40,499 nt of DNA from an uncultured Archangium sp. GTDB lineage: Bacteria > Myxococcota > Myxococcia > Myxococcales > Myxococcaceae. The notes beneath the pieces were generated by a model. That model did no database searches and was not told where the DNA came from. It saw only the letters and a program-made list of their open reading frames with translations. This document shows positions 2,723-21,905 of this stretch, in pieces (the stretch's first letter is position 1; each line of letters begins with the position of its first letter). Made by a program: the position numbers and the translations under genes. Location of the stretch: positions 1-40,499 of the forward strand of contig CAIVGN010000073.1 in the NCBI GenBank assembly GCA_903905455.1, read 5' to 3'.

Positions 2723-2934
2723 CGCGTCACGAGGAAGGCGAGCAGCGCCGTGAGAGCCACGATGCCCGCCGAGAAGAGCGCGAGGTGGAGCCGGTGCGCG
2801 TGGCGCAACTCCATGAACTCGAAGCCCACCAGCAGCGCCTTCACGCCTCCGAGGGAGACCGCCACGAAGGGACGACCGCTCGCCACCGCCACGCCCGCGA
2901 GACCAACCAGTGCAGCCCAGGTGAGCAGTCGCAT
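2719..2934 (-). CDS. small membrane protein, cytochrome c oxidase subunit IV-like (NorF-like)
   Basis: A 71-residue protein with two or three hydrophobic helices (MRLLTWAALVGLAGVAVASG..., KALLVGFEFMELRHAHRLH, LALFSAGIVALTALLAFLV). Size, the central ELRHAH segment and position after norE match the prokaryotic cytochrome c oxidase subunit IV/NorF group, small membrane partners found in nor clusters and needed for full nitric oxide reductase activity in some denitrifiers. The ATG at 2934 was chosen because it follows the norE stop by 2 nt; a longer reading of the frame back to 3456 would overlap norE entirely. The stop overlaps nnrS by 4 nt. Function is inferred from family and context. Confidence 0.75.
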   Translation of the reverse strand: MRLLTWAALVGLAGVAVASGRPFVAVSLGGVKALLVGFEFMELRHAHRLHLALFSAGIVALTALLAFLVTR

Positions 2935-2936
2935 GG

Positions 2937-5404: not shown

Positions 5405-5444
5405 GGTCACTCCGGTGTGGCGTCGCGGACGCCGTGCGTGGCGA

Positions 5445-5492
5445 CGGCCCCTCACCCCGCCCTCTCCCCGCTGTCGCAGGGCGAGGGAGAAC
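5445..5492 (-). repeat. REP-like stem-loop element, copy 1
   Basis: 48-bp element closely matching 36964-37012, in the same orientation, abutting the norQ stop codon. Read on the minus strand it folds as CCCTCGCCC-loop-GGGAGAGGG with one mismatch. Such CCCTCTCCCC elements are dispersed in many genomes and give spurious PHPALSPLSQGEGE-like peptides in translations. Here it lies between norQ and norD and could affect read-through or mRNA stability. Confidence 0.75.
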
Positions 5493-6262: not shown

Positions 6263-6266
6263 GGCG

Positions 6267-7613
6267 TCACTCCTTGGCGACCGCGACGCCGGTGACCGGC
6301 GCGTTGGGCATGCCGTAGCGGATGAAATTCCAGATGAAGGCCGCCGCGCCCAGGGTGAACAGCGACGCCGCGAGGATGAGCCCGATGAAGTGCACCGAGA
6401 TCTCCTTCTGCACGGTGAGGAAGTCCATCCCCACGCGGCGCTCGAGCACCACCTGCGTCACGCCAGCGACGGCGAAGGCGAGCGTCATGGCCACCATGCC
6501 CACGTTCGAGACCCAGAACGCGAAGCCCGCGGTGACGTGCTCGTACAGCTTGCGGCCGGTGAGCAGCGGCATCGAGTAGGTGATGATCCCCAGGATGAGC
6601 ATCGCGTAGGCGCCCCAGAAGGCCATGTGCCCGTGCATCGCGGTGACCAGCGTGCCGTGCGTGTACATGTTCACCTGCGGGATGGTGTGCGCGAACCCGA
6701 GGAAGCCGGCCCCCACGAAGCTCATGAAGGCGCAGCCCACCGTCCACAACAGGGCCACGCGGTTGGGGTGCGTGCGGCCGCCCTTCTTCGCCATGGCGAA
6801 GGCGTAGATGGCCATGCCCAGGAACGAGAGCGGCTCCAGCGCGCTGAACACCCCGCCGACCATCAGCCAGTACCTGGGGGTGCCGATGTAATAGTAGTGG
6901 TGGCCCGTTCCGAGGATGCCCGAGAGGAACGTGAAGCCCACGATGACGTAGAGCCACTTCTCGATGATCTCCCGATCGACGCCGGTCAGCTTGATCAGCA
7001 GGTACGAGAGGATCGCGCCCATGATCAGCTCCCACACGCCCTCGACCCACAGGTGCACCACCCACCAGCGCCAGAAGCTGTCCACGGTCTGGTTGTCGGT
7101 GGGGATCATGCCCGGGAGGTAGAGCAGCGCCGCCGCGAGCAACCCGAAGAAGAGCACCATCGACGTGGTCGACTTCTTGGGGCTCTTCCACACCGTCCAC
7201 CCGATGTTGGCGATGAACAGCAGCACGTCGGCCACCACCAGGAAGTCGAGGGGCCGGGGGATCTCCAGGAACTTGCGGCCTTCCCACCAGTTGAAGTGGA
7301 AGCCGATGAGCGCGGTCACGCCCACCACCACGAAGGCGATCAACTGCGCCCACGCCAGCTTCGGCCAGGCCAGCTCCCGGTCGGTCTCGTCGGGAATGAT
7401 CCAGTACGCGGCGCCCATGAAGCCCGAGAGCATCCACATCACCAGCAGGTTGGTGTGCGAAGCACGCGCGGTGTTGAAGGGGATCCACTGGTGGAGGCCA
7501 TCGAAGCCCGCGTGGGCGAAGGCCATGATGAAGCCGTAGACGATCTGCAGCGTGAACAACAACATGCACGTCGCGAAGAAGCCCCACGCGACCTTCTGAC
7601 TCTGGAACTTCAT
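6267..7613 (-). CDS. norB: nitric oxide reductase large subunit NorB (cNOR)
   Basis: Integral membrane protein of 448 residues with about twelve helices, the catalytic subunit reducing two NO to N2O. Length and the absence of an N-terminal quinol-oxidase extension place it with cNOR, consistent with norC next to it. Ligands are all visible: H53 and H329 (haem b), H327 (haem b3), and H187, H238, H239 for FeB. Glutamates E191 and E260 are also in place. From H187 onward the numbering is offset by exactly 20 from Pseudomonas aeruginosa NorB (H207, E211, H258, H259, E280, H347, H349). Its ATG overlaps the norC stop by 4 nt. It is likely fully functional. Confidence 0.97.
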   Translation of the reverse strand: MKFQSQKVAWGFFATCMLLFTLQIVYGFIMAFAHAGFDGLHQWIPFNTARASHTNLLVMWMLSGFMGAAYWIIPDETDRELAWPKLAWAQLIAFVVVGVTALIGFHFNWWEGRKFLEIPRPLDFLVVADVLLFIANIGWTVWKSPKKSTTSMVLFFGLLAAALLYLPGMIPTDNQTVDSFWRWWVVHLWVEGVWELIMGAILSYLLIKLTGVDREIIEKWLYVIVGFTFLSGILGTGHHYYYIGTPRYWLMVGGVFSALEPLSFLGMAIYAFAMAKKGGRTHPNRVALLWTVGCAFMSFVGAGFLGFAHTIPQVNMYTHGTLVTAMHGHMAFWGAYAMLILGIITYSMPLLTGRKLYEHVTAGFAFWVSNVGMVAMTLAFAVAGVTQVVLERRVGMDFLTVQKEISVHFIGLILAASLFTLGAAAFIWNFIRYGMPNAPVTGVAVAKE

Positions 7614-8305
7614 CGGGCCATCTCCTTCTGCGACGACAAGAACGTGACGAGCTCGGTCAACTGCGCTTCGTCGAGGGGAAGCTTCGGCATCTTGGTGCCC
7701 GGCTTGACGGCCGCCGGGTCACGCAACCAGCGGTCGAGGTAGGCGGCGTCGAAGCGCGAGCCCACGCCGTCGAGCGCCGGGCCCACCGTGCCGCCTGCGC
7801 CTTCCAGCGCGTGGCAGGTGATGCACAGCTGCGAGAAGATCAGCGGCCGCGGGGGCGCGTTGGGTCCCGCCGCGCGCTGGGCCGGGGCGCCCAGGGTGGG
7901 CTTCGCGGGGAAGCCGTTCAGGTCCACCTTGCCGCACCACTCGAAGAAAGCGACCAGGTCGGCGATCTGCGCGTCCTCGAAGTGGTAGTTGGTCATGTTC
8001 CGTTCGCCGGGAAACATGGCCTGCGGGTTCTTGAGCTGCGCCGCGATGAACACCGGCCCGCGCCGCTCGAACACCTTCGTCAGCTCCGGCGCGTAGTACG
8101 CCCCTTCACCGAAGAGCGTGTGGCAGCCCATGCAGTTGTTGTCTTCCCAGAGGTGCTTGCCGCGCTTCACGCTGTCGGTGAGCGCCGCGGCGTTGGTCCT
8201 CCCGGGAATCTGTTGGAACGTGTCCCACGTGAGCCCGAGGAAGATGGCCGACAACAAGACCGTCCCTCCCAGGAAGAAGGCCTTCGCCGCTGATTTCGAG
8301 AGCAT
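7610..8305 (-). CDS. norC: NorC with two c-type haem sites
   Basis: Membrane-anchored cytochrome c subunit of nitric oxide reductase, passing electrons to NorB. The N-terminal anchor (residues 8-28) and first haem site CMGCH (58-62), with the ERNMTNYHF ligand region near M104, match classic NorC of about 150 residues. This protein is 231 residues because it carries a second cytochrome c domain: an Ala/Pro-rich linker (about 133-155), CITCH at 161-165 and a KMPKL methionine at 206. A TTG further upstream (8335) could add 10 residues; the ATG at 8305 is preferred because the protein then begins like NorC homologues, though no strong ribosome site is visible for either. First gene of the leftward operon, divergent from nirK. 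Confidence 0.92.
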
Positions 8306-8387
8306 GGCGGGAGCGCTCTTCAGCGAACGTGCCAAGGCGGCCGCGCTCGGAGTCGTGCACCCGGGTCGTCAGCCGACGTTCCGTGTA

Positions 8388-8402
8388 GTTTCAGAGTGAA
8401 AC
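8388..8402. promoter_or_regulatory. inverted repeat GTTTCA-GAG-TGAAAC in the norC-nirK divergent promoter region
   Basis: Perfect 6-3-6 dyad centred 90 bp from the norC start and 109 bp from the nirK start, in an AT-richer patch of the 198-bp divergent spacer. The half-sites are identical to those at 1540-1554 upstream of the porin. A single dimer here could control both directions. The cognate regulator is unknown. Confidence 0.65.
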
Positions 8403-8503
8403 AAACTAGCCACCGGATTTCTCCCGGGATCGCGGGGGCTTCCGGTGGGCCTCGCCTTGCACTGGTCACCTCGGAGACAGCAACACCACCAGGGAGTCTG
8501 CCG

Positions 8504-9916
8504 ATGAACGTCGTGATCTTGAGTCTGGCGCTGTGGAGTCTGACCACCGCGTTGCCCGAGGAGAAGGCCCTCCTCACCGAGCCGCCGCTGGTGCCGCCGG
8601 CGATCACCCGCACCACGCCCGCCAGGGTGAAGGTGGAGCTGGAGGTCATCGAGAAGGTGATGCAGCTGGCCGACGGCGTCGACTACACGTTCTGGACCTT
8701 CGGCGGCACCGTGCCCGGGCGTTTCATTCGCGTTCGCGAAGGGGACACCGTCGAGTTCTGGCTGGAGAACCACCCCAACAACAAGCTGCCGCACAACATC
8801 GACCTCCACGCGGTGACGGGGCCGGGCGGCGGCGCGGCGAGCACCTTCACGGCGCCGGGCCACAAGAGCCGCTTCACCTTCCAGGCGCTCAACCCCGGCC
8901 TCTACATCTACCACTGCGCCACCGCGCCGGTCGGCATGCACATCGCCAACGGGATGTACGGGATGATCTACGTGCAGCCCAGGACGCCGCTGCCGAAGGT
9001 CGACCGCGAGTACTACGTGGTGCAGGGCGACTTCTACACGGACGCGGACTTCGGCCAGAAGGGACTGCAGCCGTTCTCCATGAAGCGCGCCATCGACGAG
9101 CGCCCCTCGTACGTGGTGTTCAACGGCAGCGCGATGTCCCTGGTCGGGGACCGGGCGCTCAAGGCGAAGGTCGGCGAGACGGTGCGGTTGTTCGTCGGCA
9201 ACGGCGGCCCGAACCTCGTCTCCAGCTTCCACGTCATCGGCGAGATCTTCGACCACGTGTACCCGGAGGGCGGCAGCAAGGCGCAGGACAACGTGCAGAC
9301 CACGCTCATCCCCGCGGGCGGCAGCGCCATCGTGGAGTTCAAGCTGAACACCGACGGCACGTACATCCTCGTGGACCACTCCATCTTCCGCACCTTCAAC
9401 AAGGGCTCGCTGGGCATGCTCAAGGTCGAAGGCCCGGGCCGCAAGGACATCTACTCGGGCAAGGAACTCGACGACGTGTACCTGGGCGACGAGTCGGTCG
9501 CGACGTCGATCAAGGCCACGCCGGCCACCACGCCGCTCTCGGGGATCAAGCCCGACGGCAAGGCGCTCTTCCTCGCCAACTGCTCCATGTGCCACCAGGC
9601 CGAGGGCCAGGGCGTGCCCGGCGCGTTCCCTCCGCTGGCCAAGAGCGACTACCTGGCCAACATCTCGAACAAGAAGCGCGGGGACCTCGTGGAGTTCGTG
9701 CTCCGCGGCAAGACCGGCAAGGTCGTGGTCAACGGCAACGAGTACAACGGCGTGATGACCCCGGTGGCCGGCCTCGACGACGAGAAGCTGGCCACGGTGC
9801 TCACCTGGGTGAGCAACGCCTGGGGCAACAGCGCGCCGGCCTTCACCACCGACGAGGTGAAGAAGCTGCGCGAGGCGCTGCCCGAGGTGAAGGCCACCCC
9901 CAACGGGCACGAGTGA
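8504..9916 (+). CDS. nirK: copper nitrite reductase NirK with C-terminal cytochrome c domain
   Basis: Periplasmic enzyme reducing nitrite to NO. It has 470 residues against about 340-380 for two-domain NirK, because a cytochrome c domain with CSMCH (360-364) is fused at the C-terminus. Type 1 copper ligands H97, C138, H146, M151 and type 2 ligands H102, H137, H292 are present, as are catalytic D100 and H243. The fused haem matches three-domain enzymes such as that of Ralstonia pickettii, in which the haem is thought to feed electrons to the type 1 copper. The ATG at 8504 has GGGAG 8 nt upstream and starts a signal peptide; an in-frame GTG at 8396 would run through the operator and is rejected. 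Followed after 4 nt by nirV. Confidence 0.97.
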
Positions 9917-9920
9917 CGCC

Positions 9921-10667
9921 ATGCGCGCGCTGCGGCTGCTGACCCTGCTCGTCCCCGCCTTCGCCTTCGCCGGCGAGGTGGTGACGTTACCCGGGGGCCG
10001 CTTCGCGCCGCTGTTTGGTCTCGACGTGGGACAGAGCGCCTTCCCCGTGGGGACCTTTCGACTCGACGTGCGGCCCGTGTCGCGCGCCGAGTTCGCCGCC
10101 TTCCTCGAGGGGAATCCCGCGTGGAGGAAGGGCAAGGCGCCCAAGACGCTGGTCGATGAGCGCTACCTGGCGACCTTCACCCCGGCGAAGCACCCCGCGG
10201 GGCCGGTGACCCAGGTCTCGTACTTCGCGGCGCGCGCGTACTGCGCGGCGAAGGGGGGCCGGCTGCCCAGCACGCTGGAGTGGGAATACGCCGCCGCGGC
10301 CGACGAGACCCGCCGCGACGCCTCGCGCGAAGCCGACTTCGCCCAGCGCATCCTCGACTGGTACGGCCAGCCCAACCGCGAGGGCGACCTCGAGCAGCCC
10401 GGCAGCCCGCGCAACGTCTACGGGCTCGAGGCGTTGCACGGGCTGGTGTGGGAATGGACGGACGACTTCAACGCCGTCTTCGTGTCGGGCGACAACCGCC
10501 AGGATGGCGACACCAACCCGAAGTTCATGTGCGGCAGCGGCGCGACCGGCAGCGCGCGGCGCGAGGACTACGCGGCCTTCATGCGCTACGCGTTGCGCTC
10601 GAGCCTCACGCCGCGCTCGACGTTGCCCAGGCTCGGTTTCCGTTGTGCCTACGAGGTGAACCCATGA
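9921..10667 (+). CDS. nirV: NirV, formylglycine-generating-enzyme-like protein
   Basis: Exported protein of 248 residues with a signal peptide (MRALRLLTLLVPAFAFAG) and an FGE-sulfatase (SUMF1-like) fold. Signature stretches are PVSRAEFAAFL, PVTQVSYFAARAYCAAKGGRLPSTLEWEYAA (about 92-125), VWEWTDDF and the terminal LGFRCAYE. Such proteins directly downstream of nirK are called NirV; their role in nitrite reductase maturation is assumed from conservation of the pair rather than proven. It starts 4 nt after the nirK stop and its stop overlaps the next ATG by 4 nt, so the three genes are one transcript. Confidence 0.88.
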   Translation: MRALRLLTLLVPAFAFAGEVVTLPGGRFAPLFGLDVGQSAFPVGTFRLDVRPVSRAEFAAFLEGNPAWRKGKAPKTLVDERYLATFTPAKHPAGPVTQVSYFAARAYCAAKGGRLPSTLEWEYAAAADETRRDASREADFAQRILDWYGQPNREGDLEQPGSPRNVYGLEALHGLVWEWTDDFNAVFVSGDNRQDGDTNPKFMCGSGATGSARREDYAAFMRYALRSSLTPRSTLPRLGFRCAYEVNP

Positions 10668-11215
10668 GAGCGCTCCTGTTGTGGTGCTGCCTGCTGGCGC
10701 CGCTGGCCCACGCGCAAGACGACGCGAAGAACGTGCTCGCCCTCGACACCACGTGGCGCACCGAGCAGGGCGAGCCGCTGAAGCTCTCCGCGCTCAAGGG
10801 GCGCTGGTACGTGCTGACCTTCGTCTACACCTCGTGCGCTGGCACCTGCCCGCTGACCACGCGCAAGCTGAAGCGTCTCGAGCAGGTCCTCGCGCAGGCC
10901 GGCAAGCCACTGGACCTGGTGGTGGTGAGCCTCGACCCCGCGCACGACACGCCCGAGGCGCTGGTCGCGTACCGCAAGCGGTACCAGCTCGAAGAGGCGA
11001 AGCGCTGGCGGGTGCTGGTCGGCGACGACGCGCAGGTGCGCACGCTGACCATGCTGCTCGAGTTCAAGTACACGAAGAACCCCGAGTCGGGCGTCATCCT
11101 CCACGACAACACGGTGTTCCTCGTGGGGCCCGAGGGCACGGTGAAGACGACCATGTCCTCGCTCGATCAACCGCTCGAGGCGTTCGTCGCCGCGGTTCCC
11201 AGCGCCCGGAAGTGA
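10664..11215 (+). CDS. SCO1/SenC-type copper chaperone
   Basis: Thioredoxin-fold SCO protein of 183 residues with a signal peptide (cleavage likely after LAHA). The copper ligands are visible: CAGTC (C58, C62) and H147 in ILHDNTVF. The family delivers copper to, or reduces thiols of, CuA sites in oxidases. Here it is translationally coupled (ATGA overlap) to nirV and co-transcribed with nirK, so copper loading of NirK is the likely role (inference). The adjacent cNOR has no copper, which supports NirK as the target. Confidence 0.9.
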   Translation: MRALLLWCCLLAPLAHAQDDAKNVLALDTTWRTEQGEPLKLSALKGRWYVLTFVYTSCAGTCPLTTRKLKRLEQVLAQAGKPLDLVVVSLDPAHDTPEALVAYRKRYQLEEAKRWRVLVGDDAQVRTLTMLLEFKYTKNPESGVILHDNTVFLVGPEGTVKTTMSSLDQPLEAFVAAVPSARK

Positions 11216-11331: not shown

Positions 11332-12525
11332 GTGGAGGAGTCGGGGCGAGCCGGTGCGTGCGATGCCACCGGGGCTCGCGACGGGTGCACCGTGCGCTTG
11401 ACGGTGAAGGTGGCCCACTCGCTCGAGGCGCTGCGACCCGAGTGGGAGCAGCTGGAGCGCACCTCCTTTCCCCGCACGCCCTTCACCCAACCGAGGTGGT
11501 CCTCGCTGTGGCTGCGGCACTTCGCCCAGCAGCGGTCGTCGTTGAACGACACGCTCCTGCTGCTCTCCTTTCGTGATCAAGAAGGCGCGCTGCGCGGCGT
11601 GGCGCCGATGGTGGTCTCCCAGCGGCCGGCCTTTGGGCCCCTGCGTACCCGCATGCTGCAGTCGCTCGGCTCCGACCCCAACGTCACCGAGTTGAGCGGG
11701 CGGACCTCTGCGCCCGAGCATGCGCCTGCCGTGATGACGGCGCTGTTGCAGTACCTGGAGCAGCACCGCGCGTCGTGGGACCTGGTGTACTTCAGCAGCC
11801 TGCGCGACACCGAGCGGGAGGTGCTCGCGCAGAGCCCCGGCGTGCACTGGGCGGGCGAGCGGCCGGACTTCGTGCTGGAGCTGCCTCCGACGTGGGAGGC
11901 GTTTCGCGCGGGGCTGGGGCGCAACATCAAGGAGTCGCTGCGCAAGTGTTACAACTCGCTCAAGCGCGACGGCTACGACTTCGAGGTGAAGGTCCGCACC
12001 GCGCCCGCGGAGATGGAGGAGGCGCTGACGCAGTTCTTCCGCCTCCACGCGGCGCGCGCTTCGCTGCCGGGCGCCGTGGAGCACCACGACGTCTTCGCCC
12101 ACGAGCACTCGCGGCGGTTCTTGCGAGACTACGTGCACGAGGCGGCAGCGGCCGGGGAGGCGCGCTTCTTCCAATTGGTCATCGACGGGCAGGTGGTGGC
12201 GACGCGCCTCGGCTTCGTCCTCGACGAGCACCTCTACCTCTACTTCTCGGGCTTCGACCCCGCGTGGCGGCACCACAGCGTGATGACCACCACGGTGGCC
12301 GAGGCGATCCGCTGGGCGATCGACGCGCGGCTGCGCTTCGTCAACCTCTCGCCGGGCCGCGACGTCTCGAAGACCCGCTGGGGCCCCTGCGAGCTGACGT
12401 TTCACGCGGCCTACCTGCGGAGCCACTCGCTGCGGGGTGCGCTGGTGCACCACGCCTACCAGGCGTCGCGCGACGAGCACTCGAAGCTCAGCCGGCTGCT
12501 GGCCTTCGCGAAGCGCCGGAGCTGA
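11332..12525 (+). CDS. GNAT-fold (BioF2-like/CelD-type) acyltransferase family protein
   Basis: Protein of up to 397 residues. The C-terminal half carries the Acetyltransf_6 (BioF2-like, CelD-related) pattern: NIKESLRKCYNSLKRDG, FFRLHAAR, ARFFQLVIDGQVVATRLGFVLDEHLYLYFSGFDPAWRHHSVM and FVNLSPGRDVSKTRWG. Members act in exopolysaccharide or peptidoglycan-related acyl or aminoacyl transfer, but the substrate is not predictable. The start is uncertain: GTG at 11332 gives the longest form, while GTG at 11392 removes a 20-residue low-complexity leader and fits the domain start better. It is 116 bp downstream of the nirK operon and convergent with the next gene, ending 7 bp from that stop. No functional link to denitrification is evident. 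Confidence 0.75.
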   Translation: MEESGRAGACDATGARDGCTVRLTVKVAHSLEALRPEWEQLERTSFPRTPFTQPRWSSLWLRHFAQQRSSLNDTLLLLSFRDQEGALRGVAPMVVSQRPAFGPLRTRMLQSLGSDPNVTELSGRTSAPEHAPAVMTALLQYLEQHRASWDLVYFSSLRDTEREVLAQSPGVHWAGERPDFVLELPPTWEAFRAGLGRNIKESLRKCYNSLKRDGYDFEVKVRTAPAEMEEALTQFFRLHAARASLPGAVEHHDVFAHEHSRRFLRDYVHEAAAAGEARFFQLVIDGQVVATRLGFVLDEHLYLYFSGFDPAWRHHSVMTTTVAEAIRWAIDARLRFVNLSPGRDVSKTRWGPCELTFHAAYLRSHSLRGALVHHAYQASRDEHSKLSRLLAFAKRRS

Positions 12526-12532
12526 CGCGTCG

Positions 12533-14125
12533 CTAGGGCAGCACTTCGAAGGCGACGGCCGTGGGGTCGACGAGGCCACCGGCCCCCGGGTCGACGGACA
12601 ACTGCGGCACCAAGACGTTGAGCCCGGTCGCGGCGTCCCACGTGCCGACGTTGGCGAACTGCACGGCGTAGACGGCGCGGGTCGCGAGCACGGGGTCGGC
12701 GTCGGGCAGGGCCAGCGAGAGCCGGTAGGCACCGGCGCCGAGGCTGGCGGGCAGCCGGAGGCGCAGGTCGAGGGCGTGCGGGCCGGGTTCCCAGCGGCGC
12801 GCGTCGACCGTGGTGACCGGAGCCACGAGGCGGGTCGCGCCGCGCTCGAGCACCACCTGCAGCGGGCGGGGGTTGAAGAGGGAGCCGTAGCCCTCGTTGC
12901 GCAGCTGCAGCCGCAGCGCGAGCACCCCGCCGGGCCGCACCGCGACGGAGTGCCCGAGGGACTCGAGCACCAGCCGGTAGCCGAGGCGGCGCCGCACCTG
13001 CTCCATGCAGCCGCCCGTGGTCCACGAGGCGAGCACGTCGGGGTGGTAGAGCGAGTTGACGAAGGCGAAGTGGAGGCGCTCCATCTCGGCCGTGGCGCTC
13101 GCGCACTCGGAGCGGGGCGGGTCTACCGCGCAGGTCTCTCCTCCGACCGGGGTGAAGCGGCCCGAGGCAGCGACGTAGCTCTTCCATGTTTCGACGGGGG
13201 ATTGGTAGGTGCCGAAGTCGGTGGCGTCGGCGAGGAAGCAGTCGTTGTGGTGGCCAGTGCGCGCGGCGTCGGTGCCGGAGTACGCGGCCGATGCGGGCAA
13301 CGCGCCTCCCGGGAACATGGCGTCGACGAAGTGCGGCGTGCGGACCTGCACCATGCGCGAGGTCGGCAGCGCCCGCAGGATGCCGGTGAGCACGGCGGTG
13401 TGCTCCGCGGTGGTGTCGAGGCCGTTGGTCGAGGAGTGCCACTCGCCCCAGGCCCCGATGAAGCCCGCCTGCATCACCGCGATGACGTCGGCGTTGCGCG
13501 CCAGGAGCGGCTGGAGTTGGACCAGGTGCGAGAGGATCTGCGCGTGCGAAGCGTCGGCCGCGCCGATGGGGCCGTCGTTGTATTGAAAGCGGAGGATGAC
13601 CTTGATGCCGGCGGTGCGGGCGCGGCCCAGGCCACTCTCGAGGTCGGTGAGCAACGTGGCGGACAGCGGCGCAGTGCGGAAGGCGTCGAGGCGCACGCCG
13701 GCGAGCGCGAGGGTCATGCCCGCCGTGCGCACCGAGTCGGAGGGCGTGCCGTCGGTGAGATCGATGACGTCGTAGAAGCCGCGCTCGGGGTTGAGGAGGC
13801 CGGCGTCGAGCGGCTGGAAGAGGAGCGTGGCGAGGGCGGGTTCGGCGCCTGCGTCGATGGCGCCTGCGTCGATGGCGCCTGCGTCGATGGCGCCTGCGTC
13901 GATGGCCCCTGCGTCGGCGGCGCCTGCGTCGGCGGCGCCTGCGTCGGCGGCGCCTGCGTCGGCGGCGCCCGCGTCGAGGAGGCCCGCGTCGAGGAGGCCC
14001 GCGTCGAGGAGGCCCGCGTCGGCGTCAGCGTTGCCGGCATCGGGCTCGTCCCCCGGCAACTCGGAAGCGACGCCCGGCGCGCAGGCAGCGAGCAACAGGA
14101 ACAGTCCGAGGGCGCGCAGGCTCAT
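12533..14125 (-). CDS. lipoprotein with DUF4874 and DUF4832 domains
   Basis: Predicted lipoprotein of 530 residues; lipobox LLAAC with C15. After the signal lies an Asp-Ala-Gly-rich linker built from perfect pentapeptides (DAGLL x3, DAGAA x4, DAGAI x4). The body follows the DUF4874-DUF4832 pattern: [17 protein letters not shown], and a TIM-barrel-like [11 protein letters not shown] segment with a conserved Glu resembling glycoside hydrolase active sites, then a beta-sandwich end ([21 protein letters not shown]). This pair of domains is seen in secreted proteins thought to act on polysaccharides; activity is unproven. The start at 14125 is chosen from the signal peptide; an upstream in-frame extension to 14476 runs through non-coding DNA with a large palindrome. 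Confidence 0.85.
13846..14025 (-). repeat. 15-bp tandem repeat array coding for a DAGxx linker
   Basis: Twelve consecutive 15-bp units in three homogeneous blocks: four GTCGATGGCGCCTGC-type, four GTCGGCGGCGCCTGC-type, three GTCGAGGAGGCCCGC-type, plus one variant. Translated on the minus strand they give [10 protein letters not shown] and DAGLL pentads. Block-wise homogeneity points to recent slippage or unequal exchange. Units are a multiple of 3, so length changes stay in frame. Confidence 0.9.
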
Positions 14126-14664: not shown

Positions 14665-15330
14665 CTATTCCGGGAGCGTGTCGCCGCGCGAGACGGCCTC
14701 CAGCCGCACCGCGTCTCGAATCTGGATCGACCGCGCCGAGCTGATCAACCCGGCCTCGGTCAACGAACGCAGCGCCCGCGACATGGTCTCCGGCCGCACG
14801 TCGAGCAGCGCCGCGACATGCCGCTTGGAGAACGGCGCGCGACGACCGGGCATCAACAGCGACCCGTAGCGCAGCAGGAACCGCGCGACCCGCGAGAGCG
14901 CCGGGCCGGTGCGGAGATCCGAATCGCGCGTGGCCTGGCTCAACTCGTCGAGCGCGAAGTCGAGCAGCGTCTTCGTCTCGTCGAGGCTCATCTGCGCCTT
15001 CAACGCCGTCGCCGTGATGCTGCACACCACCGCGTCGGTCAGCGCCACCACCGTGCCGCGCGCCACCTGCCCACGCAGCCCCTCGAGGCCGAGCATCGAC
15101 CGCGGCCCGCGCACGCCCGCTACCAACTCCCGCCCGCCCGCGTCGCTCGCGCTCACGCCCAGCACGCCCTCCTTCACGAAGAGCAGCGGCACCTCGTCTT
15201 CTCCCTGCGCCCAGAGCCGTGCTCCAGAACCAAGGCGCCGCGGCTTGAAGCGACACGAGCCCTTGTCCCCGAGAGGACACTCACTGCACGAATGCACCGC
15301 GGCTTGAAGCATGGGCCGGCACCCTTTCAT
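14665..15330 (-). CDS. FNR-type Crp family transcription regulator with Fe-S cysteines
   Basis: Crp/Fnr regulator of 221 residues: N-terminal cysteine cluster, cyclic-nucleotide-binding-like beta roll, dimer helix and C-terminal HTH. The cysteines C15-x2-C18-x7-C26 plus C103 (in VVCSI, at the place of E. coli FNR C122 in VCEI) suggest an oxygen-labile [4Fe-4S] cluster. The recognition helix RPETMSRAL has E181-x2-S184-R185, the motif that binds TTGAT half-sites. It is therefore expected to act as an anaerobic switch. An alternative start is the ATG at 15312; both have weak ribosome sites. It is divergent from the acyl-AMP ligase operon, with only 41 bp between start codons, so it may control that operon or itself. 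Direct control of the nor/nirK dyads is unlikely as these are not FNR boxes. Confidence 0.87.
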   Translation of the reverse strand: MKGCRPMLQAAVHSCSECPLGDKGSCRFKPRRLGSGARLWAQGEDEVPLLFVKEGVLGVSASDAGGRELVAGVRGPRSMLGLEGLRGQVARGTVVALTDAVVCSITATALKAQMSLDETKTLLDFALDELSQATRDSDLRTGPALSRVARFLLRYGSLLMPGRRAPFSKRHVAALLDVRPETMSRALRSLTEAGLISSARSIQIRDAVRLEAVSRGDTLPE

Positions 15331-15371: not shown

Positions 15372-17054
15372 ATGATCCTCGCCACTGACACCCGTTCAAC
15401 GAACTCGGCCCCGGCGTTGCAAGGCCCGCCCGCCGTGTCGTCCCCCACCCCACTGCAGGGCCCCCCGCTCCCCACGGTGCGCGCAGCGTCGCTGTGGGAG
15501 GCCCTCGCCGGCGAGCCCTTCTCGTGGCTCACGTTCCATATTGGAACACTCGAGAACGAGACCACCCTCACCCAGCTCCGGGAAGCAGCGCTGACGTGGG
15601 CGCACGGCGTCACCGAAGCCCTCGGTCATGAAACACCGGCGCGCATCGGGGTGCTCTTGCCCAACGGCCCCGACTTCGTGGCGGCCTTCTTCGCGGCCCA
15701 GGCGCTCGGCGCCGCGGCCGTGCCCTTGCCGTGGCCGGTGGTCGACGGCGCGCCGGAGCGCGTGCGCGAGTCGCTCGAGCCGGTGCTGCAGCGCGCGAAG
15801 TTGTCGGCGTTGATCACCACGCCCTCGATGGCGACCGTGGCGTGGGGTGTGCCGCTGATCACCGCGCCGGGAACACAGCTCGCCACCCCGCGGCCCACCG
15901 GCCCCGACGGCACCGCCTTCATCCAGTTCACCTCCGGCTCGACCGGAGATCCCCGGGGCGCCGTCATCTCCCAGCGCGCCGCGCTCGCCTCCGCCACCTC
16001 CATGGGCGCCGCGCTCGGCCTGGGCCCCGCGGACGTCGGGGTCTCGTGGCTCCCCTTCTTCCACGACATGGGACTGGTCGGCGTGCTGCTCACCTCGCTG
16101 CTGGCGCGCTTCCCGGTGCACGTGCTGCGGCCCGGCGACTTCCTCATGCGCCCGCGCAAGTGGCTCGACCTCGTGTCGTCCACGCGGGCCACGCTCACCG
16201 TCGGCCCCAACTTCGCCTGGGAGCTCGTCACCCGCCGCGTCGCCCCCGAGGGCCTCGACCTCTCGGCGCTGCGCTGCGCGCTGAACGGCAGCGAGCCCAT
16301 TCACCGCACCACGCTCGATGGCTTCTCGAAGAAGTTCGCCGCCGCCGGCTTCAACCCCGCCGCGATGCTCCCGGTGTACGGCCTCGCCGAGGCCACCCTG
16401 GGCGTCGCCTTCTCCCGCCCCGGCGCGCTGCGCGAAGACGTGCTCGTCGAGGGCCGCCCCATTCCCAGCAACGGGCCGCTGGTGCCGGGCATGGAGCTCC
16501 GGGTGTTGGATGCGGAGGGCGTCGCCGTGCCCGAAGGCACCCAGGGCGAGCTGTGCGTGCGCGCCCCGATGGTGATGGGCGGCTACTTCGAGCACCCCGA
16601 GGCCACCGCCGCCGCGCTGCGAGACGGCTGGTTGCACACCGGCGACCTCGGCGTGGTGCGCGACGGCAACGTCTACGTCACCGGCCGCGAGAAGGAGCTC
16701 GTCATTCAATCGGGGAGGAAGTTCCACCCCTACGACATCGAGCGCGTGGTCGCCGGCATGGTGGACGCGACGCCCAACGGCGTGGCCGCGGTCAGCCGCC
16801 CCGACGCCGCCCAGGGCAGCGAGGCCCTGGTGGTAGTCATCGAGCTGCGCCGCGTCTCGGGCGCCATCGACCCCATGTTGATTCGCGGCGAGCTGCTCAA
16901 GGTGCTCGGCGTGCGCGCCGACGTCGTGGAGTTCGTCGCCGCCGGCGCGTTGCCCCGCACCACCAGCGGCAAGGTGAAGCGCCGGGCCGTCGCCCAGGGC
17001 CTCGCCGACCTGCTCACCCACGCGCCCGTCGTCACCGGAGCCGGAAACGCATGA
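15372..17054 (+). CDS. fatty acyl-AMP ligase-like adenylating enzyme
   Basis: ANL-superfamily enzyme of 560 residues. Motifs: P-loop FTSGSTGDPRGA at 186-197, SWLPFFHDMGLVG at 225-237, YGLAEATL at 336-343, GWLHTGDLG at 419-427 and the C-terminal catalytic lysine K534 in PRTTSGKVKR. The HDMGLVG and GDFLMRPRKWLDLVSSTRAT segments favour the FAAL subgroup, which activates fatty acids as acyl-AMP and loads them on an ACP rather than on CoA. The ACP encoded two genes downstream is the likely acceptor. The first 38 residues match no part of the family; the ATG at 15372 has a poor ribosome site, so the true start may be later. First gene of a five-gene operon, divergent from fnr; the stop overlaps the next ATG by 4 nt. 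Confidence 0.88.
   Translation: MILATDTRSTNSAPALQGPPAVSSPTPLQGPPLPTVRAASLWEALAGEPFSWLTFHIGTLENETTLTQLREAALTWAHGVTEALGHETPARIGVLLPNGPDFVAAFFAAQALGAAAVPLPWPVVDGAPERVRESLEPVLQRAKLSALITTPSMATVAWGVPLITAPGTQLATPRPTGPDGTAFIQFTSGSTGDPRGAVISQRAALASATSMGAALGLGPADVGVSWLPFFHDMGLVGVLLTSLLARFPVHVLRPGDFLMRPRKWLDLVSSTRATLTVGPNFAWELVTRRVAPEGLDLSALRCALNGSEPIHRTTLDGFSKKFAAAGFNPAAMLPVYGLAEATLGVAFSRPGALREDVLVEGRPIPSNGPLVPGMELRVLDAEGVAVPEGTQGELCVRAPMVMGGYFEHPEATAAALRDGWLHTGDLGVVRDGNVYVTGREKELVIQSGRKFHPYDIERVVAGMVDATPNGVAAVSRPDAAQGSEALVVVIELRRVSGAIDPMLIRGELLKVLGVRADVVEFVAAGALPRTTSGKVKRRAVAQGLADLLTHAPVVTGAGNA
15533..15547. promoter_or_regulatory. intragenic dyad GTTCCA-TAT-TGGAAC
   Basis: Perfect 6-3-6 inverted repeat inside the ligase gene, around codons 54-59. 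It differs from the 1540 and 8388 dyads by one symmetric base per half-site. Whether it is an operator or chance is unknown; it sits where conserved ligase sequence begins. Confidence 0.25.
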
Positions 17055-18046
17055 TGCTCGTCCTCGGCGCTGGCGGTTTCCTCGGCCTCAACACCGTGCG
17101 TGCGTGCCTCGACGCCGGCATCACCCCGCGCTGTGGCCGTCGCCCCCGCGGCAACGTGCTGGGCCTGCGCGGCCTCGGCGCGCCCCTGGTGAACACCGAC
17201 TTCACCCAACCCGAGTCGCTGCGCGAGGCGATGGCCGGGGTCGACGTGGTGATCCACGCCGCCGCCCACTACCCGCGCTTCTCGCATGACATGGCGGCCA
17301 CCATCGCCCGCGGCCTCACCGAGCTCGACGCGGTGCTCGACGCCGCCGCCGCCTCGGGCGTCGAGCGCCTGGTCTACGTCTCGAGCACCGCCACCGTCGC
17401 CCCGCGCGCAGACCTCGCGCCGTCGACCGAAGCCGACCTCTTCACCGCGTGCCCCGAGCACGGCACCTACCACGCGCTCAAGTGGACCCTCGAGCAGCGC
17501 GCGCTGACCGAGTCGCGCTTCGAGGTGCTCGTCGCCTGCCCCTCGGCCTGCCTCGGCCCCTACGACTGGAAGGTCGGCACCTCGGCCTTGCTGCTCTCCA
17601 CCGCGCGCAGCATCCCGCCCCCGCACCCGGAGGGCCTCATCTCCACCGTCGACGCCCGCGACGTGGCCCTGGCCCTGGTGCACCTGGCGACCGCGGCCGC
17701 GCCTCCGAAGCGCCTCGTGCTCTCGGGCGAGACGTCCGACGCGCACGAGCTGCTGGTGAGCGTCGCGCAGCGCTACGGCGTCGCGCCCCCGCCGCCCGCG
17801 CTCGCGCCCGACGAGGCCCGCGCCTTCGCCGACGCCCAGGAGCTCGAGGCCGCCGCGAAGAAGACCCGGGCCTCGCTGCCCCGCGAGCTCGTCGACCTCA
17901 TCGTGCACGCCCCGCGCCTCGACACCTCGCGCGCCCGCTCTCTCGGCCTGTCGTTCCGGCCGCTCTCAGAAACCCTCGACGCCTGGGACTCGTGGGCCCA
18001 GCGCATGGGGATGCTCCCCTCCCACGCTTCGAAGGCGACCGCATGA
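17051..18046 (+). CDS. extended SDR family NAD(P)-dependent epimerase/reductase
   Basis: Extended short-chain dehydrogenase of 331 residues. The Rossmann motif GAGGFLG is at 6-12, and the active-site Y140-x3-K144 (YHALK) follows the serine pair S111/S112 in YVSSTATV. Overall pattern is closest to the dihydroflavonol-4-reductase/3-beta-hydroxysteroid dehydrogenase-like branch, which oxidises or reduces hydroxyl/keto groups; in this setting a beta-keto or hydroxy acyl-ACP is a reasonable substrate (inference). The start is one of two adjacent ATGs (17051 or 17054); the first overlaps the ligase stop (ATGA). It couples to the ACP gene by a further 4-nt overlap. Confidence 0.83.
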   Translation: MMLVLGAGGFLGLNTVRACLDAGITPRCGRRPRGNVLGLRGLGAPLVNTDFTQPESLREAMAGVDVVIHAAAHYPRFSHDMAATIARGLTELDAVLDAAAASGVERLVYVSSTATVAPRADLAPSTEADLFTACPEHGTYHALKWTLEQRALTESRFEVLVACPSACLGPYDWKVGTSALLLSTARSIPPPHPEGLISTVDARDVALALVHLATAAAPPKRLVLSGETSDAHELLVSVAQRYGVAPPPPALAPDEARAFADAQELEAAAKKTRASLPRELVDLIVHAPRLDTSRARSLGLSFRPLSETLDAWDSWAQRMGMLPSHASKATA

Positions 18047-18303
18047 ACGACGAACTCCCGAACCGCATCGCAGCCATGGTGGCCCAGCTCACCGTCGTCA
18101 AGGCCGCCGACATCCGCCCCGAGCACCGCCTGCGTGAAGACCTCGGCCTCGACTCGGTCTGCTCGATGGAGCTGCTCTCGATGCTCGCCGAGGAGCTCGA
18201 CCTCGACGTGCCCATGGAAGAGGCCGCCCAGGTCACCACCGTCGCCGGCACCATCGAGATGGCGCGCCGCCACCTCGCGCTCAAGCAGGCCCCCACCGCA
18301 TGA
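18043..18303 (+). CDS. acyl carrier protein
   Basis: Small acidic carrier protein of 86 residues. The LGLDSVCSMEL motif places the phosphopantetheine-accepting serine at S38, at the head of helix II, and the spacing to the C-terminal helices is normal for ACPs. It is a stand-alone ACP within the operon rather than the housekeeping AcpP, which would lie beside fabD/fabF. It probably holds the acyl chain loaded by the ligase while the SDR, dehydrogenase and radical SAM enzymes act on it (inference). ATGA overlaps at both ends. Confidence 0.9.
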   Translation: MNDELPNRIAAMVAQLTVVKAADIRPEHRLREDLGLDSVCSMELLSMLAEELDLDVPMEEAAQVTTVAGTIEMARRHLALKQAPTA

Positions 18304-19730
18304 GCGCCGACGTCGTCGACGCCCTGCTGCGCGGCGTGAAGGACTTCACCAAGCGCCACGTGCACGCCCTCGCCATCGACGAGGCGCACCGCATTCCCCC
18401 CGAGGTGCTCAGCGGCTTCGCCGAGCTGGGCCTCTTCGGCCTCACCCTGCCCCCCGAGTTCGGCGGCGCCGGGCTCACCGCGCTCGATGCCACGCGCGTC
18501 ATCACCACCATCGCCCAGGCGGACCGCTCGGTGGCCACCACCATCGGGCTCCACCTCGGCCTGGGCACCCGCGGCCTCGTCGCCTGGGGCACGCCCGCCC
18601 AGCACGAGCGCTGGCTGCCGTCGTTGGCCAGCGGCGAGGTCATCGCCGCCTTCGCCACCACCGAGCCCGGCGCCGGCAGCGACCTCTCGGCGTTGCAGTG
18701 CCTCGCCGTGGCCAACGGCGCGGGGCAGTTCACCGTCAACGGCAACAAGATCTACGTCACCAACGGCGGCCTCGCGTCGCTGCTCACCATCACCGCGGCC
18801 ACCCCCGGCCTCGGCGGCGCGGCCCGGGGCACCAGCCTCTTCCTCGTCGACCCGAAGACGAAGGGCGTGCTGCGCCAGCCCGAGGAGCACAAGCTGGGGC
18901 TGCGCGGCTCGTCGACCACCGCCTTCGTGTTCGACGAGACGGTGCTCCCCCCCGACGCGCTGCTCGGCGAGCCTGGCCAGGGCACCGCGTACCTCCACCA
19001 CGTGCTCTCGTGGGGCCGGCTCCTGCTGAGCGCCGGCTGCGTGGGCACCGCCACCGCCGCCCTCGAGGCCACGCTGCTCCACGTGCACGCGCGCAAGCAG
19101 TTCCACCGCGCGTTGATCAAGCAGGAGGTGGTGCAGCAGCAGCTCGCCCGCGCCGCGGCCATCAAGTACGCGATGTCGGCCCTCGTGGCGCACGCGGCCG
19201 CCAGCGAAGATGACCACGCGGCCCTCGCCCGCCTCACCACCAGCGCCAAGGTGTTCTGCAGCGACGGCGCGGTGGAGCTCGCCGACCTCGCCATCCAGCT
19301 CCACGGCGGCGCCGGCTACATCGAAGACACCGGCGTGGCGGTGATGCTCCGCGACGCCCGCGTCACCCGCATCTTCGAGGGCGCCAACGACGTACTCCTC
19401 ACGCACGCGGGCCTGATGGAGCTGACCGAGCCCCAGCCCGGCAAGCCCGACGCCCTCGACGGCGCCGTCGAGCAGCGCCGCCAGAAGATCCTCACCGAGT
19501 CTCCCGGCGTGCGCGCGCTCAACCGCAAGGTCGAACAGCACGCGCTGGGCAAGGCCGTGGTGTGGCGTGACGCCGCCCGCGCGGCCCTCGCCCAGGCCCG
19601 AACCCCCCTCGAGGCCGCCGCCGCCGCGCTGGTGCGCGACGAGGCCATCGCCCTCGCTGCCCGCCCCGCGCTCGACGCGCCCGCCGTCACCACCCTCACC
19701 GCTTCGCTCCTGGAAGGCGTTTTCCCGTGA
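18300..19730 (+). CDS. acyl-CoA dehydrogenase family flavoenzyme with C-terminal extension
   Basis: FAD-dependent dehydrogenase of 476 residues, about 90 longer than standard acyl-CoA dehydrogenases because of a C-terminal helical extension after residue 380. Family marks: AAFATTEPGAGSDLS (117-130), QLHGGAGYIEDTGV (333-346) and the catalytic base E360 in RIFEGAND. It should introduce an alpha,beta double bond into an acyl thioester; with an ACP and a ligase in the same operon the substrate may be acyl-ACP, as in some secondary-metabolite pathways. The extended form recalls the very-long-chain type. It starts in a 4-nt overlap with the ACP gene and ends in a GTGA overlap with the radical SAM gene. 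Confidence 0.9.
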   Translation: MSADVVDALLRGVKDFTKRHVHALAIDEAHRIPPEVLSGFAELGLFGLTLPPEFGGAGLTALDATRVITTIAQADRSVATTIGLHLGLGTRGLVAWGTPAQHERWLPSLASGEVIAAFATTEPGAGSDLSALQCLAVANGAGQFTVNGNKIYVTNGGLASLLTITAATPGLGGAARGTSLFLVDPKTKGVLRQPEEHKLGLRGSSTTAFVFDETVLPPDALLGEPGQGTAYLHHVLSWGRLLLSAGCVGTATAALEATLLHVHARKQFHRALIKQEVVQQQLARAAAIKYAMSALVAHAAASEDDHAALARLTTSAKVFCSDGAVELADLAIQLHGGAGYIEDTGVAVMLRDARVTRIFEGANDVLLTHAGLMELTEPQPGKPDALDGAVEQRRQKILTESPGVRALNRKVEQHALGKAVVWRDAARAALAQARTPLEAAAAALVRDEAIALAARPALDAPAVTTLTASLLEGVFP

Positions 19731-21016
19731 AGATCCTCTTCGTCTACCCCCGCTTTCAACGTCACGCCGAGGCGCACCCCGAACTCAAGCAGTGGGTGCC
19801 CATGAACGAGTACCTGGGCTCGCCCTCGCTGGGCATCGCCATGATGGCCGCCGTCACCCCCGACGACATCGTGCTCGAGTTCCGCGACGACCGGCTCTCG
19901 CCGGCCGACGTGCCCACCGACGCGGATGTGGTGGCCTTCAGCTTCTTCACCGCCGCCGCCTCGCGCGGCCTCGAGCTGGGCGACTACTTCCGCGCCCAGG
20001 GCAAGAAGACCATCGCCGGCGGCATCTTCCCCACCATGATGCCCGACGAGTGCGCCTCGCACTTCGACTCGGTGGTCATCGGTGAAGGCGAGCCGGTGTG
20101 GGCCCAGGTCATCGCCGACGTGCGCAAGGGCCAGCTCCAGCCCCGCTACAAGGCGACCGAGATCCAGAGCCTCGCGGCCCTGCCCCTGCCCCGCGTCGAC
20201 CTCTACATCGACAAGGAAGCCGGCTCGTTCCACCCCGACGACTACCCGGTGCAGCTCTCGCGCGGCTGTCCCCTCAACTGCCAGGCCTGCGCCCTGCCCA
20301 CGTCGATGACCACGTCGATGCGCGACTTCCACCTCGACCACGTGGTGGGGCAGCTGGAGCAACTGGCGAAGGAAGGCAAGCGCGCCTGCCTCACCGAGGA
20401 CACCAGCTGGTTCCCCGGCTCGGCCGCGAAGAAGTTGAAGGCCCTCTTCGAGCGCATCGTCGCCCGCGGCGCCCCGGCGACCATCAGCTACATCGGCATC
20501 TCGATGCCCATGATCCTCGCCACCGGCAAGCCGATGCTCGACCTGGCGAAGAAGGCCGGCGTCGACATGTTCTACCTGGTGGGCGGCTTCGACCCCGTCA
20601 CCAAGCAGGCCTTCACCGGCAAGGACCCCAAGGCGCTCTCGCGCGCCTACGAGGCCATCGCCAAGAGCCTGGACGCGGGCATCGAGCCGTACACCTCGTT
20701 CCTGCTGGGCAACGAAGACGACGACGAGGGGACCGTGGACCGCATGCTCGAGTTCGCGGCCAAGAGCGGCATCACCAAGGCCGAGTTCGCCATCTTCACG
20801 CCGTACCCCGGCACGCCCGCGTGGTTCCGGCTGCTCAAGGAAGACCGCATCCTCGACCGCACCTGGAGCCACTACAACGACGCCAACTGCGTCTTCCAGC
20901 CCAAGAACATGACCGTCGAGCAGGTCACGCAAGGCTACCTGCGGCTGTGGCGCGAGTTCTACGCGGGCAAGAACTTCCAGGACCGCTGCGTCGCCGAGCG
21001 CACCATCCAGTTCTGA
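19727..21016 (+). CDS. B12-binding-domain radical SAM enzyme
   Basis: Protein of 429 residues. The N-terminal Rossmann-like part (MKILFVYPRF..., LGIAMMAAVTPDDIVLEFRDDR, DVVAFSFFTAAASRG, IAGGIFPTMMPDEC) is the cobalamin-binding fold of the class-B type and lacks a DxHxxG motif, as is usual there. The radical SAM cluster is RGCPLNCQAC with C181, C185, C188. The C-terminal TIM-barrel part has the YPGTP segment typical of this class. Such enzymes methylate or rearrange unactivated carbons, including hopanoid C-2/C-3 methylation and lipid ring formation. In this operon an acyl-chain modification is likely, but the reaction is not predictable. GTG start overlaps the previous stop. Last gene of the operon. 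Confidence 0.9.
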   Translation: MKILFVYPRFQRHAEAHPELKQWVPMNEYLGSPSLGIAMMAAVTPDDIVLEFRDDRLSPADVPTDADVVAFSFFTAAASRGLELGDYFRAQGKKTIAGGIFPTMMPDECASHFDSVVIGEGEPVWAQVIADVRKGQLQPRYKATEIQSLAALPLPRVDLYIDKEAGSFHPDDYPVQLSRGCPLNCQACALPTSMTTSMRDFHLDHVVGQLEQLAKEGKRACLTEDTSWFPGSAAKKLKALFERIVARGAPATISYIGISMPMILATGKPMLDLAKKAGVDMFYLVGGFDPVTKQAFTGKDPKALSRAYEAIAKSLDAGIEPYTSFLLGNEDDDEGTVDRMLEFAAKSGITKAEFAIFTPYPGTPAWFRLLKEDRILDRTWSHYNDANCVFQPKNMTVEQVTQGYLRLWREFYAGKNFQDRCVAERTIQF

Positions 21017-21075: not shown

Positions 21076-21330
21076 ATGAGCGACGCAGCCCGGCTTCCCA
21101 GGTGGGTGACCTCGAACGAAGCGTCCGTCTGGCGCGAGACCGAGGTTTCTCGCCGCCAGACCCCCGAGGCGCGCTGGGCCGACGTGCTCGCCGCGTGCGA
21201 CTCGCTCCGGTTCTACTGGGACATCCCCGGCTACGCCGAGCGCATCAAGGGGGCCGTGGATCCGTTGCCCGAGTCCTCGCGAGCCGCGCTCAGCCGTCTC
21301 CGCGAGGCGTACCGCCGGGGTGGCCGGTGA
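21076..21330 (+). CDS. hypothetical 84-residue protein paired with a nucleotidyltransferase
   Basis: Small basic protein (84 residues) that I do not recognise. It is rich in Arg and Trp, with a central WADVLAACDSLRFYWDIPGYAERIKG segment and a C-terminal helix SSRAALSRLREAYRRGG. No HTH or membrane segment is evident. Its stop overlaps the GTG start of the nucleotidyltransferase gene (GTGA), so the two are translated together. This small-first layout is common in toxin-antitoxin modules, which makes an antitoxin role possible, but it lacks the HEPN RX4-6HXY motif of known MNT partners. The ribosome site before 21076 is weak. Confidence 0.6.
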   Translation: MSDAARLPRWVTSNEASVWRETEVSRRQTPEARWADVLAACDSLRFYWDIPGYAERIKGAVDPLPESSRAALSRLREAYRRGGR

Positions 21331-21905
21331 CCGACCGGGCCTTCAACGCGGCCGAGGTCGGGCTCTCCATCGCCCACGCCCTCGAGGCCCGACAGGTGCC
21401 CTACGCGCTCGGTGGCGCCCTGGCCTACGGCGTCTGGGCCCTGCCGCGGGCGACGAAGGACGTCGACCTCAACCTCTTCCTGGCCACCGACCAACTGCGC
21501 GCGGGCTTCGAAGCGCTCGCGAGCGCCGGCGTCACGTTCGACCAGGCAGAGGCGACGAAGCAGGCCGCCGAAGAGGGGCTCTTCATCGGCTGGGTGGGGG
21601 CGTGCCGGATCGACGTCTTCACGCCCAGCATTCCGTTCTCGTGGGAGGCGCTGAAGACCCGCGTCTCGGTGAACGTGGGCGGCTCCTCCGCGTGGTTCCT
21701 CTCTGCGGAGGCCCTGTCGTTCTTCAAGATGATGTTCTTCCGAGGCAAGGACCTCGTCGATCTCGAGCGGCTCATCAGCAGCATGGGTCGGCGTCTCGAC
21801 GCTCCCTACGTGCGAAGGTGGCTGGTGGAGACGATGGGCGAGGGCGACGAGCGCGTCCTCAAGTGGGACGAGCTGTGCGCGACCTTCTGGCGCGACGCTC
21901 CGTGA
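21327..21905 (+). CDS. nucleotidyltransferase-fold protein, possible AbiEii/MNT-type toxin or antitoxin
   Basis: Protein of 192 residues starting at a GTG inside the upstream stop. The N-terminal motif YALGGALAYGVWALPRATKDVDLNLFL holds the GG (29-30) and the D45-x-D47 metal-binding pair of the polymerase-beta nucleotidyltransferase fold, with R41 placed as in AbiEii-like proteins. The rest (LSFFKMMFFRGKDLVDLERLI, YVRRWL) is also typical of that group. Such proteins transfer NMP to tRNA, nucleic acid or protein, and many are part of toxin-antitoxin or abortive infection systems. Here the partner is an unknown small protein. It is not related to the flanking lipid operon by sequence. Ends 106 bp before a convergent porin gene. 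Confidence 0.75.
   Translation: MTDRAFNAAEVGLSIAHALEARQVPYALGGALAYGVWALPRATKDVDLNLFLATDQLRAGFEALASAGVTFDQAEATKQAAEEGLFIGWVGACRIDVFTPSIPFSWEALKTRVSVNVGGSSAWFLSAEALSFFKMMFFRGKDLVDLERLISSMGRRLDAPYVRRWLVETMGEGDERVLKWDELCATFWRDAP

Follow-up and report, generated by a model that had tools for sequence, protein, structure and literature searches.

In the mycobactin pathway the module MbtM-MbtL-MbtN, which consists of a fatty acyl-AMP ligase (FAAL), an acyl carrier protein (ACP) and an acyl-ACP dehydrogenase, produces an unsaturated acyl chain. Bacterial ceramide operons have the arrangement aasR-cerR(epi)-acpR-spt, as in Caulobacter (CC_1165-1162) and E. coli BL21 (ECD_02851-02854), and in Caulobacter the ligase was shown by experiment to load its own ACP exclusively, the loaded ACP then being used by the serine palmitoyltransferase (SPT; PMC9386255). 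The SgaAB cluster of Pseudomonas fluorescens MYb115 makes sphingolipids with a polyketide synthase (PKS) and an alpha-oxoamine synthase (AOS; PMC12134224). Modification of an acyl chain by a B12 radical SAM (S-adenosylmethionine) enzyme was proposed for the swf clusters of sponge symbionts (PMC3908369) and for the ladderane candidate Kuste2803 (PMC2649909). Here we describe an operon in a stretch of 40,499 nucleotides (the window) from an uncultured Archangium sp. of the Myxococcota (GenBank assembly GCA_903905455.1, contig CAIVGN010000073.1). Its five open reading frames on the plus strand, at positions 15372-21016, encode an acyl-AMP ligase, a short-chain dehydrogenase/reductase (SDR), an ACP, an acyl-CoA-dehydrogenase-like protein and a B12-domain radical SAM enzyme, which may tailor acyl chains for a sphingolipid-like lipid.

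Conservation of the five-gene operon in Myxococcota

A first reading of the DNA made without database searches (the sequence-only reading) had described five genes joined by four overlaps of 4 nt, with all catalytic motifs intact and with no ketosynthase (KS) or thioesterase present. Open reading frames, Pfam matches and an alignment of homologues bear this out. The start/stop overlaps are, in the order of the genes, ATGA, ATGA, ATGA and GTGA, and local to the operon neither a KS nor a thioesterase is encoded. The catalytic residues were compared over up to 34 homologous operons. The CxxxCxxC motif of the radical SAM enzyme is kept in 34/34 operons, E360 of the dehydrogenase is invariant (33/33 copies) as are D37 and S38 of the ACP (32/32 copies), Y140 and K144 of the SDR are kept in 25/25 operons and K534 of the ligase in 22 of 25.

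A gene-neighbourhood test showed that the homologues are co-conserved and not scattered. The radical SAM family, and with it the operon, is present in 26 of 195 Myxococcota genomes, and the edge of this family is sharp: relatives have 50-79% identity, followed by a fall to about 30%. Gene maps, in which contig ends cut some of the copies, revealed three layouts. Type I (16 genomes including that of the window) has the order ligase-SDR-ACP-dehydrogenase-radical SAM, type II (5 genomes) the order ligase-SDR-ACP-radical SAM-dehydrogenase, and type III (5 genomes of one family) lacks the SDR and consists of ligase-ACP-radical SAM-dehydrogenase-AOS. The flanks of the operon vary between lineages and the neighbouring genes are unrelated, which identifies the five genes as the unit. 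Over 20 operons, the pairwise distances of each of the five proteins follow those of the others, with r values of 0.82-0.95. The overlap of the dehydrogenase stop with the radical SAM start (ATGA/GTGA) recurs in nearly all type I copies, and an overlap of the ACP stop with the radical SAM start in most type II and III copies, indicating that in all three layouts translation of the radical SAM gene is coupled to that of the ACP or dehydrogenase gene. The recurrence of the gene set across the phylum, together with that of the dehydrogenase/radical SAM junction, goes far beyond chance. Taken together, the operon is a conserved, co-inherited unit with intact enzymes.

Two loci contain incomplete sets. 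One member of the radical SAM family is an orphan (L038:1164-2447), the other operon genes being absent within 12.4 kb. At L039:7311-14792 the genes SDR-ACP-dehydrogenase-radical SAM occur without a ligase beside benzoyl-CoA-degradation-like genes and the gene of a CrtI-like flavoprotein; CrtI-like genes also adjoin the operons of L056 and L080.

Table 1. Operon genes and divergent regulator gene in the window (aa, amino acids).
Feature	Position	Strand	Assignment based on
Fatty acyl-AMP ligase-like enzyme, 560 aa	15372..17054	+	Pfam AMP-binding, 195 bits
Extended SDR, 331 aa	17051..18046	+	Pfam Epimerase; YxxxK
Acyl carrier protein, 86 aa	18043..18303	+	PP-binding, 43 bits; DSV motif with Ser38
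Acyl-CoA-dehydrogenase-family flavoprotein, 476 aa, C-terminal extension	18300..19730	+	Pfam/NCBIfam; catalytic Glu360
B12-domain radical SAM enzyme, 429 aa	19727..21016	+	CxxxCxxC at 181/185/188; B12-binding, DUF4070
Crp/FNR-type regulator, divergent from operon	14665..15330	-	N-terminal CxxC-x7-C

Association with alpha-oxoamine synthases

The operon is tied to AOS by a link that is statistically strong and partly physical. In the type III layout the AOS gene directly follows the dehydrogenase gene; four of the genomes are contiguous here, and in the fifth (G061) the AOS lies at the start of another contig. The best matches of these AOS are SPT models, with scores below the cut-offs of the models. 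They have the MATHT motif in common with Myxococcus-type SPT-like proteins and are located on the SPT side of the tree. At two type III loci a YghO-type GNAT adjoins the AOS, and E. coli and Caulobacter need a member of this GNAT family to form dihydroceramide.

The window itself does not contain an SPT. The genome to which it belongs (G000, 8.6 Mb) has three AOS. Two are BioF and KBL, and the third forms the C-terminus of a KS-AT-KR-DH-AOS megasynthase (PKS-AOS), a type of enzyme responsible for PKS-derived sphingolipids; we found no paper describing a cluster with such a megasynthase for Myxococcota. The megasynthase is present in 48 of 193 Myxococcota genomes, or in 49 with G006, in which a contig end cuts the copy. 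It occurs in 20 of the 21 genomes with a type I or type II operon, in 0/5 type III genomes and in 29 of 167 others. The co-occurrence corresponds to a Fisher P value of 1e-12 by genome and a hypergeometric P value of about 2e-7 by genus, both not corrected for kinship. Six further operon genomes, reached by another route, all have the megasynthase (6/6), and in each of the families f3, f10 and f31 one genome has both operon and megasynthase and the relatives searched have neither. This co-occurrence is a new link between the operon and AOS. On contig C127 of the window genome (L127:1-11578) the 2301-aa megasynthase is accompanied by a YghO-type GNAT, an acyl-AMP ligase of its own and a CMAS methyltransferase in a cluster of sphingolipid type.

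Four other interpretations were examined and dropped. In G056 a ligase of the megasynthase-linked clade is located directly 3' of the operon, which speaks for the link to the megasynthase, but this does not show a direct adjacency of operon and PKS-AOS, because the ligase by the operon and the ligase by the PKS-AOS are two genes, 68% alike. G006 is not an exception to the co-occurrence, since the first 539 residues of a PKS-AOS run to a contig end. G041 had suggested that the operon stands in for three genes of the PKS-AOS locus (ligase, ACP and CerR), but this genome has a CerR beside the PKS-AOS and a ligase of the linked type elsewhere. A canonical Myxococcus-type SPT as partner is not supported either, the AOS of the window genome being limited to the three named above. 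When SPT was searched for, the top matches in Myxococcaceae operon genomes (1e-62 to 1e-73, with none in G003) stayed under the level of canonical SPT in other genera, which is about 1e-77 or better.

Properties of the encoded enzymes

The ligase contains the core motif TSGSTG of AMP-binding enzymes. Its best NCBIfam match is the fatty acyl-AMP ligase PRK09192 (333 bits, under the cut-off of 600), and the best solved relative is 3pbk, the sequence of which is that of the sphingolipid AasR of E. coli, with 33% identity. The start of the protein is uncertain, the first ~40 residues being poorly conserved. The loop from YGLAE to PG comprises 27 residues in the window and 25-27 in type I ligases, compared with 46 in type III and 44-55 in most ligases linked to the megasynthase as well as in E. 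coli AasR, which shows that the FAAL-specific insertion is missing in type I ligases. The assignment as FAAL in the sequence-only reading is thus only partly sustained: the AMP-binding motif, K534 and the FAAL-type best matches agree with it and the absent insertion does not. Because the ACP is encoded between ligase and dehydrogenase, it is the likely acceptor for the type I ligase.

The dehydrogenase shows three acyl-CoA dehydrogenase domains in Pfam. The same trio of ligase, carrier and acyl-CoA dehydrogenase would be expected for a pathway in which an amino or aryl acid, and not a fatty acid, is bound to the carrier, similar to the prolyl-PCP (peptidyl carrier protein) dehydrogenase systems of the PigI/PigA/PigG type. 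The missing FAAL insertion fits such a pathway, and the dehydrogenase matches the RedW and PigA models at 188 and 170 bits. These scores are far under the cut-offs of 650 and 500, however, the FadE and AcrC models score higher, and the ligase has its best matches among fatty acyl-AMP ligases, so that we regard an amino or aryl acid substrate as very unlikely.

The radical SAM enzyme reaches the cut-off of the B12-binding domain PF02310 (32.9 bits, cut-off 32.1), is just below that of the Pfam radical SAM domain (28.9 bits, cut-off 29.5) and matches DUF4070. It stays below the cut-offs of several curated NCBIfam families, with scores and cut-offs in bits of 24/650 for HpnR, 21/578 for HpnJ, 51/481 for BchE, 40/360 for the ladderane model and 33/500 for AprD4. 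Using an AlphaFold model (pLDDT 86.7), whole-length fold matches were obtained with AprD4 as the best one (Z 30.7, 17% identity), followed by MgmA, OxsB, CysS and TsrM; MiaB and RimO match over the whole length, too. Cobalamin-dependent methylases make up several of the fold matches, and the solved structures of CysS and TokK contain substrates attached to pantetheinyl. The best match, AprD4, acts as a diol dehydratase together with a reductase partner, so that a dehydration role of the window enzyme is conceivable. C-methylation would be the most likely reaction compared with other radical chemistry.

The SDR probably uses NADPH as coenzyme, as indicated by RR after beta-2. In a tree the SDRs of the operons group in a separate clade (support 0.999) that includes neither E. 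coli CerR nor the CerRs linked to PKS-AOS, which rules out that the enzyme is a CerR. It is not HpnA by NCBIfam (129.9 bits, cut-off 367.65), and five other HpnA-like paralogues in the window genome outscore it on this model. In the main rival explanation, the five enzymes suffice to make a modified fatty acid, an aldehyde or a signal that stands alone, and the link to PKS-AOS is due to shared ancestry or lifestyle. The SDR, as a member of the cinnamoyl-CoA-reductase/DFR-like superfamily, would then release the chain reductively, or the acyl-ACP would be passed to glycerolipid acyltransferases. Cinnamoyl-CoA reductase is indeed among the few solved relatives of the SDR, the operon is a closed set of five genes whose flanks vary, and the PKS-AOS has loading enzymes of its own. 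On the other hand, Pfam gave no match of the SDR to the thioester-reductase family (NAD_binding_4), AOS genes are located inside type III operons, and the co-occurrence of operon and PKS-AOS is strong and repeated across families. We consider a stand-alone product possible but rather doubtful.

Regulation and neighbouring genes

The Crp/FNR-type protein encoded divergently from the operon likely regulates it. Its CxxC-x7-C motif, by its pattern of cysteines a possible Fe-S redox sensor, is kept in 5/6 relatives found near other operons. The subfamily of this regulator is present in all operon-bearing Myxococcaceae genomes searched (12/12), in several of them adjacent to the operon, and at comparable scores in only two other genomes, both with the megasynthase. 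Oxygen- or nitric oxide (NO)-responsive control of the operon is plausible and is compatible with a sphingolipid-like product.

Positions 1565-11215 of the window encode NnrS, NorD, NorQ, NorB, NorC and a NirK-like copper oxidase carrying cytochrome c at its C-terminus; a formylglycine-generating-enzyme-like protein and a SCO1 protein come next. If the operon were functionally part of this adjacent denitrification island, its product could be a redox- or NO-regulated, non-sphingoid anaerobic lipid by which denitrifying myxobacteria adapt their membranes. Apart from the position of the NnrS, NorDQBC and NirK-like genes upstream of the operon, the FNR-like regulator beside it here and in relatives would fit this explanation, as would hemerythrin, Rrf2 and a weak NnrS-like match near other operons. 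However, NorB occurs in 7/12 Myxococcaceae operon genomes and in 0/14 outside this family and is therefore a feature of the lineage and not a property of the operon. The denitrification genes were rejected as functional partner on these grounds, and an operon product of this kind seems quite unlikely.

Of the two small genes 3' of the operon (21076-21905), one encodes a protein of 84 aa and the other a 192-aa protein that by eye resembles a nucleotidyltransferase; both gave no Pfam or NCBIfam match and were not found beside other operons. Positions 12533-14125 encode a DUF4874/DUF4832 protein that looks secreted and has a long series of DAG-type tripeptide repeats close to its N-terminus. The GNAT at 11332-12525 was considered as ceramide synthase and rejected, because it has no homologue near other operons and no similarity to YghO.

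Proposed function

At roughly even confidence, the AOS within type III operons and the co-occurrence with the megasynthase would be explained most economically by the tailoring of acyl-ACP for a sphingolipid-like pathway, and we give an acyl-chain tailoring module for such an AOS-dependent lipid about the same chance of being right as wrong. The ligase would adenylate a free fatty acid and load it onto the operon's own ACP. Subsequently, the flavoprotein would dehydrogenate the acyl-ACP at C2-C3, and the B12-type radical SAM enzyme would functionalise the ACP-bound chain at one of its carbons, with C-methylation as the most likely reaction. The SDR would use NADPH to reduce a carbonyl, which could be the 3-keto group present after condensation or a carbonyl of the chain. 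The acyl-ACP would be handed to an AOS for condensation with an amino acid, and this AOS would come from the same operon in type III and would be the PKS-AOS encoded elsewhere in the genome in types I and II, including the window. Alternatively, in types I and II the chain could become the amide-linked acyl group of the megasynthase lipid. We infer in this scheme the substrate, the order of the steps, the dehydrogenation at C2-C3, the methylation, the role of the SDR, the fate of the chain and a single product shared by the modules.

The sequence-only reading had proposed that a carrier-bound fatty acid is desaturated, reduced or oxidised, and C-modified to give an unusual lipid or signal. Activation, desaturation and carbon modification of a carrier-bound chain hold as a deduction from the enzyme families, and the modification may be methylation or other radical chemistry; the AOS of type III, the link to the megasynthase and the gene order of ceramide operons had been missed. 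The AOS links and this gene order suggest that the chain is probably a building block for condensation with an amino acid and not the end product.

Several observations weigh against a tailoring module for AOS. The PKS-AOS locus includes a ligase, often together with an ACP and a CerR-like reductase of its own, and shows no obvious need for the operon, whose SDR falls outside the CerR clade. Operon and PKS-AOS are on different contigs in the window genome and ~276 kb apart in G159. For the AOS domain of the PKS-AOS the BioF model gives the highest score, so that serine is not implied as its amino acid. PKS-AOS is present without the operon in 29 genomes, G069, a type II genome, carries the operon but no PKS-AOS, and PKS-AOS is also missing from G200 (SDR-ACP-dehydrogenase-radical SAM, no ligase nearby). 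Furthermore, the genomes are not independent, and the P values of the co-occurrence therefore overstate the evidence.

Desaturation and branching of sphingolipids in eukaryotes depend on O2-using desaturases and SAM methyltransferases. The operon might instead provide an O2-independent route to a new sphingolipid-like class, in which the C2-C3 double bond would become delta-4 of the sphingoid base and the radical SAM enzyme would methylate or otherwise functionalise the chain before the AOS acts; we regard this extended version as unlikely. If true, a pair of acyl-ACP dehydrogenase and B12 radical SAM enzyme that supplies an AOS would offer an anaerobic alternative to the eukaryotic reactions, a B12 radical SAM family so far without a function would be assigned one, and producers of the lipid could be predicted among uncultured Myxococcota. 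Given the three layouts and their association with AOS, the sphingolipid-like reading can be tested directly.

Comparison with known systems

In agreement with the sequence-only reading, which knew of no characterised cluster with this set, a literature search with subscription journals and preprints mostly outside its reach found no publication with the same five genes. The swf clusters (PKS, thioester reductase, sulphotransferase) and the ladderane locus (FASII cluster) have gene sets unlike that of the operon, and the ladderane model gives 40 bits against a cut-off of 360. The mycobactin module parallels the operon in FAAL, ACP and acyl-ACP dehydrogenase, but has no radical SAM enzyme or SDR; the operon proteins score 242 bits with the MbtM model and 54 bits with the MbtN model, short of the cut-offs of 621 and 700. 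As far as the accessible part of the SgaAB account goes, this cluster has the combination of type I PKS and AOS in common with the co-occurring megasynthase and contains no counterpart of the operon studied here; in Myxococcota PKS and AOS are fused and neighboured by ligase, ACP, CMAS and YghO-type genes.

The order ligase-SDR-ACP is common to the window and to the ceramide operons of E. coli BL21 and Caulobacter (aasR-epi-acpR), which also have short or 4-nt junctions and a dedicated acyl-ACP. The place of spt is taken in the window by the dehydrogenase and the radical SAM enzyme, and an SPT in or next to the operon is absent here and present in type III relatives only. The SDR belongs to another clade, and the type I ligase is without the FAAL insertion and only 33% identical to AasR. 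By these sequence relationships of SDR and ligase the window operon is placed outside the ceramide-operon family, and by analogy it probably resembles the ceramide operons in the loading of a private ACP.

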